Shown in pieces: positions 5,956 to 31,166 of a stretch of DNA of 64,000 bases. The notes under the pieces were generated by a model, which was given only the letters and a program-made list of their open reading frames with translations, had not been told where the DNA came from and made no database searches. The stretch covers positions 1 through 64,000 of the forward strand of contig NZ_JACJOO010000040.1 of the NCBI RefSeq assembly GCF_014695575.1. The letters run 5' to 3'. The DNA comes from Leptolyngbya sp. FACHB-8. GTDB taxonomy: Bacteria; Cyanobacteriota; Cyanobacteriia; Elainellales; Elainellaceae. A program made the translations under genes and the position numbers. The first letter of the stretch is position 1, and the number at the start of each line of letters is the position of its first letter.

Positions 5956-6064
5956 TTAGGAGATTTCCAGCAATGAAATTACCCCCCAGGATGTTGGTGT
6001 TTTGCCCGCGAAGCGGGCAAAACACCAACATCCTGGGTAAATTCTTATGCAGAAACCTCCTTAG
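5956..6064 (+). repeat. Family E palindromic element, copy 1
   Basis: The core is a perfect hairpin with 25-bp arms (5985-6009 and 6013-6037) and loop GAA. The flanks, from TTAGGAGATTTCCAG on the left to AAACCTCCTTA on the right, match those of the inverted copy at 26346-26508 almost base for base. The outer terminal repeats seen in the second copy are missing here. Confidence 0.85.
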
Positions 6065-26345: not shown

Positions 26346-26508
26346 GACTTACGCATTCATGTTGTGTGTACTCTGCAACTACACATAAGGAGGTTTATGC
26401 ATAAGAATTTACCCAGAATGTTGGTGCTTTGCCCGCTTCGCGGGCAAAGCACCAACATTCTGGGGGTAATTTCATTACTGGAAATCTCCTAACGTGAATG
26501 TGTAAGTC
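26346..26508 (-). repeat. Family E palindromic element, copy 2, with terminal inverted repeats
   Basis: The outer ends GACTTACGCATTCA (26346-26359) and TGAATGTGTAAGTC (26495-26508) are inverted repeats with one mismatch. The core hairpin has perfect 25-bp arms (26412-26436 and 26440-26464). The core and near flanks match the copy at 5956-6064 in opposite orientation. The two cores differ at two base pairs, both compensated. Confidence 0.85.
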
Positions 26509-30863: not shown

Positions 30864-30920
30864 GAGGGAAAGAATACCAACAGAACGGTTTTCATCTTAA
30901 ACAATAAGGCGCTAGTTTTT

Positions 30921-31113
30921 GTAGAAGGGTGAATTTTGCCAGCAATTCTCATTTTGAAATCAGACCCGAAAATCGCGCGCCAAAGGCGCGCGGTTTCGGG
31001 CATCAAAGCCAAGAGTTCACGCCCGTAGGGCGTGAACTCTTGGCTTTGATGCCCATACTGAGAATTGCTGGAATTTTGCCGGTGCATCGCACCGGCAAAA
31101 TTCACCCTTCTAC
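30921..31113. repeat. Outer hairpin element, split by a second element
   Basis: The left end GTAGAAGGGTGAATTTTGCC (30921-30940) is the exact reverse complement of the right end (31094-31113). Removing 30940-31079 (the inner element plus one copy of the duplicated GAATTTTGC) restores a perfect 20-bp-arm hairpin with tip GGTGCATCGCACC. This shows a later insertion into the left arm. Confidence 0.88.
30940..31070. repeat. Inner element with 12-bp terminal inverted repeats and 9-bp target duplication
   Basis: The ends CAGCAATTCTCA (30940-30951) and TGAGAATTGCTG (31059-31070) are exact inverted repeats. GAATTTTGC stands on both sides (30931-30939 and 31071-31079). Inside lie a short hairpin (30965-31000, CCCGAAA...TTTCGGG) and one with 24-bp perfect arms (about 31001-31051). 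At 131 bp without coding content, this is a MITE by structure. Confidence 0.88.
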
Positions 31114-31116
31114 ATA

Positions 31117-31166
31117 CTGAGGTCCTGAATTCTGCAGCATAAAGCGCACAGAATTCAGGACCTCAG
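31117..31166. repeat. Perfect hairpin, 18-bp arms
   Basis: CTGAGGTCCTGAATTCTG pairs with CAGAATTCAGGACCTCAG around a 14-base loop. It abuts the nested element and lies 46 bp after the stop of the 51-aa minus-strand gene. Confidence 0.85.

Follow-up and report, generated by a model that had tools for sequence, protein, structure and literature searches.

The 131-bp element that lies upstream of gpsA in Leptolyngbya sp. FACHB-8 (hereafter the home genome) is a MITE: it is short, contains no transposase gene, has 12-bp inverted ends and a 9-bp target-site duplication, and is present in many copies. It interrupts an older hairpin, and this nested insertion, found in a window of 64 kb (the whole stretch of DNA analyzed, 64,000 nucleotides of contig NZ_JACJOO010000040.1), puts two elements in time order and opens the way to a mobile family and to the transposase that probably serves it. 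Furthermore, the hairpins of this family, with more than 100 copies in one genome that can be oriented by their own asymmetric ends, displayed paired arm changes together with loop inversion at a ratio of about 1:1. We regard the transposon part of the explanation as practically certain, and the whole of it, in which the MITE would have been moved in trans and its hairpins renewed by template switching, as probable.

The ends of the MITE, CAGCAATTCTCA and TGAGAATTGCTG, are exact reverse complements, and in the window exact matches to this 12-mer were found only at the two ends of the element (Table 1). The initial annotation described an element with exact ends and GAATTTTGC on both sides, whose removal with one copy of the duplication gives back a perfect outer hairpin, and our re-reading of the sequence agreed on each of these points. 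The restored hairpin also bears out the proposed order of events, with the hairpin first and the element, which sits in its left arm, second. The outer hairpin had been placed at 30921-31113, one base too narrow on each side, and the hairpin noted within the inner element is present, with perfect arms longer than the 24 bp originally given. The other internal hairpin (H1) is slightly decayed in this copy, being one base shorter than the consensus and carrying substitutions. A single ORF of at least 80 aa (82 aa) overlaps the MITE and extends out of it. A further hairpin with 18-bp arms (31117-31166) directly adjoins the outer hairpin. In a genome of the same genus (G001), the gene order around gpsA is kept (GpsA 71% identical), and the gpsA intergenic region contained no inverted repeat with perfect arms of at least 8 bp, that is, neither a filled nor an empty outer hairpin. 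Searching genome contigs for GpsA gave three distant relatives (42-46% identity), blastn found no match to the gpsA-upstream locus on plasmids, and the exact-end pattern had no match in viral contigs.

Table 1. Features of the nested insertion upstream of gpsA (positions in the 64-kb window)
Feature	Position	Strand	Remarks
Outer hairpin	30920..31114	.	Interrupted in the left arm; without insert and one copy of the duplication, 55 bp long with perfect arms of 26 bp and loop ATC; probably a worn member of a diverged family of hairpins (core AGAAGGGTGATTTTT)
Target-site duplication, left copy GAATTTTGC	30931..30939	+	
Inner MITE	30940..31070	+	131 bp
Terminal inverted repeat, left end	30940..30951	+	Adjoined by TTTTG, which also follows one end of the 1420-bp insertion sequence
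First internal hairpin (H1)	30964..31000 (about)	+	Consensus with 18-bp arms and 3-nt loop
Second internal hairpin (H2)	30998..31054	+	27-bp perfect arms, loop GTA
Terminal inverted repeat, right end	31059..31070	-	
Target-site duplication, right copy GAATTTTGC	31071..31079	+	

The home genome contains the exact 12-bp end 263 times, and the same pattern read backwards 0 times. A BLAST search with the inner element yielded at least 40 near full-length matches with 93-100% identity (best 40 of 191 candidates), and a covariance model of the MITE, built from 50 copies, matched at least 150 places (best 150 of 3261 candidates), so the further copies sought by the initial annotation do exist. Since all 150 of the candidates scored are matches, the true copy number is probably higher; at four of these places a contig start truncates the match, and a single copy may be counted twice there. 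Many near-identical copies were found, in both orientations. In the fetched loci, 131 distinct copies had both ends (copies with less than 40 flanking bases, an end with more than three mismatches or a length outside 100-150 bp were left out), and 108 of them are 132 bp long. The 9-bp duplication is exact in 87 copies and has one mismatch in 28 (115/131 with at most one), two mismatches in 5 and four or more in 11, whereas duplications of 4-8 and 11-13 bp were found in no copy and one of 10 bp in a single copy. The number of ends, the places matched by the model and the exact duplications together exclude a chance origin. The mobility of the inner unit as a discrete element, as initially proposed, is supported by these many solo copies with duplications and by the presence, in related genomes, of an autonomous element that shares its ends (see below). 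Shorter versions of 83-96 bp, with MITE ends, one hairpin and exact 9-bp duplications, were also observed in the home genome (L198, L201 and L202). The home assembly is a draft of 95 contigs, and the MITE family breaks it, since four contigs (C14, C32, C48 and C51) start inside MITE copies.

Only 20 of 117 reconstructed insertion sites lay inside an ORF of at least 80 aa, compared with 40% of nearby positions. Targeted insertion into hairpins was not supported, as the sites showed no enrichment over nearby positions: 11/118 sites against 9.05 expected at an arm score of at least 10 (P 0.28), and 7/118 against 7.4 at a score of at least 14 (P 0.61), in a test that left out copies whose flanks were short or whose duplication had more than two mismatches.

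In the two adjacent hairpins of the MITE, changes on both sides of a pair were found in 26 of 53 pairs (47 distinct rows), with 116 cells changed on both sides, compared with 20.3 in shuffles and at most 13 with slid partners. The covariation score was reached by none of 500 shuffles and the number of further pair types by 3/500, and the terminal repeat had no both-side changes in its 47 distinct rows. Over all 131 copies, 487 cells changed on both sides, as against 66 G-T, 86 A-C and 27 other unpaired cells, the split between H1 and H2 being 199/288 for both-side, 41/25 for G-T, 66/20 for A-C and 18/9 for other cells. Parsimony gave 40 (H1) and 42 (H2) changes from one standard pair to another, with 125 and 54 unpaired cells in the present copies. 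The arms do not evolve more slowly than the rest of the element, with 3.7 changes per column, compared with 3.3 in unpaired inner columns and 2.8 in the ends.

Most copies have 3-nt loops that belong to pairs of reverse complements (111/131 for H1 and 117/131 for H2), and each pair is near 1:1. The H1 loops are AAA in 30 copies and TTT in 29, and GAA in 21 and TTC in 31; the H2 loops are GTA in 39 and TAC in 31, GTC in 14 and GAC in 10, and GAA in 11 and TTC in 12. The loops of each pair are three bases apart, except GTC and GAC, which differ by a single base and could therefore be related by plain substitution. The orientations of H1 and H2 are independent of each other (103 copies, Fisher p 1.0). 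On a FastTree phylogeny of the copies, midpoint rooted, inferred with the loops excluded and used without branch support, loop orientation required a minimum of 33 and 37 changes, close to the 36.7 and 38.8 obtained with shuffled labels. Loop identity, by contrast, required only 6 and 8 (37.0 and 42.4 with shuffled labels) and is thus strongly inherited. Comparisons of copies with at most four differences outside the loops, which are non-independent, gave the same loop in 340, the reverse complement in 314 and another loop in 210 cases for H1, and 352, 362 and 161 cases, respectively, for H2. Groups identical outside one loop differed by its reverse complement in 4/4 (H1) and 2/4 (H2) cases.

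This pattern points to repeated inversion of the hairpins, and we lean towards template switching during replication as the simplest mechanism. An arm would be copied from its partner and the tip turned over, such that the arms would change in step and the 3-nt loop could be present in either orientation; the hairpins of the MITE would thereby be kept perfect by renewal at the DNA level rather than by conservation of their sequence. In yeast, template switching between perfect arms homogenizes the arms and inverts 3-nt spacers (PMC8604942). According to a study of rRNA hairpins, loop inversions are rare there (PMC8794818), and hairpin-associated inversions are described as common in the non-coding regions of chloroplasts (PMC2903610). 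The hairpins described here share with these cases, as they are presented in the text accessed, the perfect arms, the inversion of a short loop and the one-step homogenization of arms. However, they are located within a bacterial mobile element, with more than 100 copies in one genome, and the inversion is saturated, with no tree signal in the orientation.

Selection on RNA structure could also have kept the hairpins, as terminators, mRNA stabilizers or processing signals, with the paired changes as compensatory mutations. It would fit with the persistence of pairing as the sequence changes, with the mostly intergenic location of the MITEs, where such signals act, and with the stable stem-loops formed by MITE transcripts according to a review of prokaryotic MITEs (PMC10969869). 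However, reverse-complement loops at about 1:1 without tree signal are not predicted by RNA structure alone, and G-T cells are no commoner than A-C cells, a comparison that is blunt if the elements are transcribed from both sides; we consider selection on RNA unlikely. Gene conversion or recombination between MITE copies in opposite orientations, rather than inversion within a copy, might have produced both loop orientations, and the many near-identical copies in both orientations would provide the substrate, but such exchange should mix loop identity too, and loop identity follows the tree. This origin therefore appears quite improbable.

It is also conceivable that loop orientation reflects no property of the genome and was randomized at hairpins while the library was prepared or the reads were assembled. 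The assembly is indeed a draft in which contigs start within MITE copies. However, the hairpins reach at most 57 bp, which is less than the approximately 112 bases shared at contig starts, so the flanks should fix their orientation, and the loops TGC and GCA were both found in an independent genome, G022, albeit in only two elements, which have the same left end and hairpins that are related but not identical. We judge an artefact of this kind to be very unlikely. Returning to template switching, it is possible, and we suggest it tentatively, that long hairpins are renewed and turned over so fast in this genome that loop orientation sits at equilibrium, with the MITE hairpins inverting many times per change in loop sequence, perhaps whenever the element transposes or is replicated, and that mobile elements thereby keep perfect hairpins of drifting sequence. 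The saturation of loop orientation is the new part of this suggestion, and the draft assembly is its main weakness. In a non-exhaustive literature search, none of the titles and openings of abstracts among the matches listed described MITE hairpins that invert freely, and the end sequences occurred in three papers with unrelated titles.

The solo copies expected for both elements were found for the inner one, whereas the outer hairpin had no second copy in the home genome at BLAST level, although its arm resembles a diverged hairpin family. Compared with 248 other hairpin arms from loci of the same genome, the outer arm reached a best score of 13, a value attained by shuffled arms in 1 of 30628 pairs. 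A model of this family (the AGAAGG family), made from six hairpins including the outer one, gave at least 139 strand matches at E values up to 0.1 (best 150 of 3394 candidates), corresponding to fewer places, since a palindrome usually matches on both strands. On inspection of 24 of the loci, 14 were taken as AGAAGG members, nine (L301-L309) belonged to another palindrome family and one was left out. Against the 14 members, the best score of the outer arm was 14 (reached by 2/20000 shuffles) and its mean score was reached by 0/20000, but this test is biased, as the outer hairpin was part of the model used to find the members. Several AGAAGG members have recurrent flanks, as judged by eye, starting near ATCTTGCACC and ending near GGTGCAAGAT; these are not evident at the outer hairpin. 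A general duplication test around the 248 non-MITE hairpins revealed no clear fixed length, and the AGAAGG family has no established duplication.

The outer hairpin might instead be an ordinary gene-end or regulatory hairpin with no tie to a mobile family. Its lack of another BLAST-level copy and of the recurrent flanks would be expected in this case, and hairpins are common, with 24 in the window reaching an arm score of at least 15. However, the scores of its arm against the other arms and, with the bias mentioned, against the family members exceed those of shuffles, and we find an ordinary hairpin somewhat unlikely. The outer hairpin is likely to be an element in its own right, and the arm comparisons suggest, with moderate confidence, that it is probably a worn member of the second, diverged hairpin family.

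The nine L301-L309 places in the home genome, two of them at contig starts, have a 55-bp palindrome core that is identical except for loop direction and sits in a longer common stretch (CTGGACAG...CTGTCCGA); some appear, by eye, to lie between short direct repeats (about 5-7 bp). Two members of yet another hairpin family (CCCAGAATGTTGG...) were observed in the window, at 5985-6037 and 26412-26464, within a longer shared repeat. Both loop directions were found in these two non-MITE families when copies were oriented by their flanks, with GAA in 4 and TTC in 3 of the seven L301-L309 copies with full flanks, and GAA in 4 and TTC in 2 of six CCCAGAATGTTGG copies. The loop counts of the 248 non-MITE hairpins were not used as evidence of flipping, since a palindrome has an orientation only if a flank provides one. 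Hairpins with an arm score of at least 15 numbered 3.8 per 10 kb in the window and 2.5 in five further regions of the same genome, compared with 4.1 in G001 (91 kb), 0 in G039 (60 kb), 0.3 in G008 (60 kb) and 1.8 in G022 (40 kb).

A candidate partner of the MITE was found in other genomes of the family. A decayed transposase remnant between MITE-type ends in G020, which lacked a matching duplication, pointed the way to an element of 1420 bp in G039, which has an intact transposase frame of 435 aa and the ends CAGCAATTCTCAGTATGG and CAGCAATTCTCATTTTGG; the common form of the MITE differs from these by one variant at each end. Nine copies of this element are present in G039, with exact 9-bp duplications at two loci. 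These two were the only exact duplications among eight distinct insertion sequence-sized intervals with both ends; of the others, one from G012 (1317 bp, imperfect ends) has one mismatch in the duplication, and the remaining five have six to nine. The transposase had matches at 1e-10 in 17 of the family's 36 genomes, a set that includes the home genome, and none in G001, G022 or the home genome itself. In the latter, a profile search identified no intact transposase, but only two fragments of 25 and 32 residues (E 0.012 and 0.032), around which there are only end-like sequences with two or three mismatches. By eye, the second fragment resembles a worn piece of the C-terminal part of the transposase and could perhaps be a fossil.

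The transposase scored below the cut-offs of both Pfam profiles matched (DDE_Tnp_1, 21.6 bits with a cut-off of 23, in one of the two proteins scanned; DDE_Tnp_1_assoc, 17.4 with a cut-off of 32.3) and far below those of NCBIfam (IS4_2, 20.5 against 152; IS701_3, 20.6 against 170). Assignment of the partner to an IS4 or ISAs1-like DDE transposase class was not supported, as none of these family profiles scored above its curated cut-off. A sequence search of solved structures found no relative of the transposase (three haemoglobin chains at E >1), and the structure model was poor (mean pLDDT 46.2). Plasmid records with a transposase match are cyanobacterial in 11 of 16 cases. A relative of 1865 bp on a plasmid of Calothrix sp. 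PCC 7716 is identical at all 16 end bases compared and is bordered by an exact 9-bp duplication. The designation ISNCY stands for 'not classified yet'. A transposase on a Gloeothece verrucosa PCC 7822 plasmid, 48.3% identical to the G039 enzyme, is labelled 'ISNCY family transposase' in its record; this one annotated copy resembles the G039 element in its transposase and shared ends, with CAGCAATTCTCATTTTG on both sides of the gene, but its flanks lack a matching 9-bp duplication. Another transposase relative, with GGCAATTCTCATTTTGG on one side, was observed on a plasmid of the gammaproteobacterium Methylomagnum ishizawai (L319). Judging from the common ends, the 1.42-kb insertion sequence of other genera is the likely source of the MITE, which would have been moved in trans by the transposase of such an element. 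The MITE inserted into the left arm of the older hairpin upstream of gpsA; the transposase may have been lost from the home genome, or may be missing from its assembly.

The 12-bp end was detected in 34 of the 36 genomes (home genome included), mostly a few times, with the highest counts in G022 (80), G007 (32), G039 (29) and G010 (19). G022 resembles the home genome in having many exact ends and yet no transposase match. Element-sized pairs of exact ends were found in six of the 36 genomes, namely the home genome (75), G020, G022, G012, G028 and G039. Thirteen shorter elements were obtained outside the home genome, with a 9-bp duplication that was exact in five, had one mismatch in two and three or more in six. 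One inner hairpin scoring at least 14 is present in six of them (five of the six from G022, and the one from G012), with a sequence other than that of the home-genome hairpins, and second hairpins in these elements were, by eye, imperfect or overlapped the first. The other seven have no inner hairpin above a score of 8, including all six from G028, G020 and G039. The two-hairpin plan was thus not firmly seen in other genera. A 224-bp MITE copy in G022 (L209, 1116-1339), with an exact 9-bp duplication, seems by eye to hold an insert of another mobile element.

The element has the features of prokaryotic MITEs as given in the review text accessed (PMC10969869), which names Correia and ERIC and has Nezha of cyanobacteria in its references: small size, absence of a transposase gene, inverted ends, duplication of the target, a high copy number, a mostly intergenic location and ends in common with an insertion sequence. 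It differs from them in its two hairpins, which keep pairing rather than sequence and have 3-nt loops both ways, and in the lack of a detectable partner transposase in the home genome. The 187-bp MITE of Microcystis aeruginosa PCC 7806, which its authors match to ISL3-type transposases (PMC11448079), is likewise cyanobacterial and non-autonomous, with a stem-loop and tens of copies, but has imperfect 9-nt ends, and paired hairpin changes are not mentioned in the portion of that report available to us. REP and BIME sequences are also intergenic palindromes with many copies, and REPs have been described as possibly moved by TnpA-REP. Unlike these, the MITE has a 9-bp target duplication and inverted ends in common with a DDE-type insertion sequence; identity with REP or BIME palindromes, which spread without target duplication, was rejected, given the 9-bp duplications. 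TnpA-REP is of the Y1 type.

Paired changes in hairpins are usually taken as a sign of RNA function. This MITE family offers a way to tell replication-driven renewal of hairpins from selection on RNA, and to measure its speed. If loop orientation is indeed at equilibrium, such an element would preserve its shape rather than its sequence.
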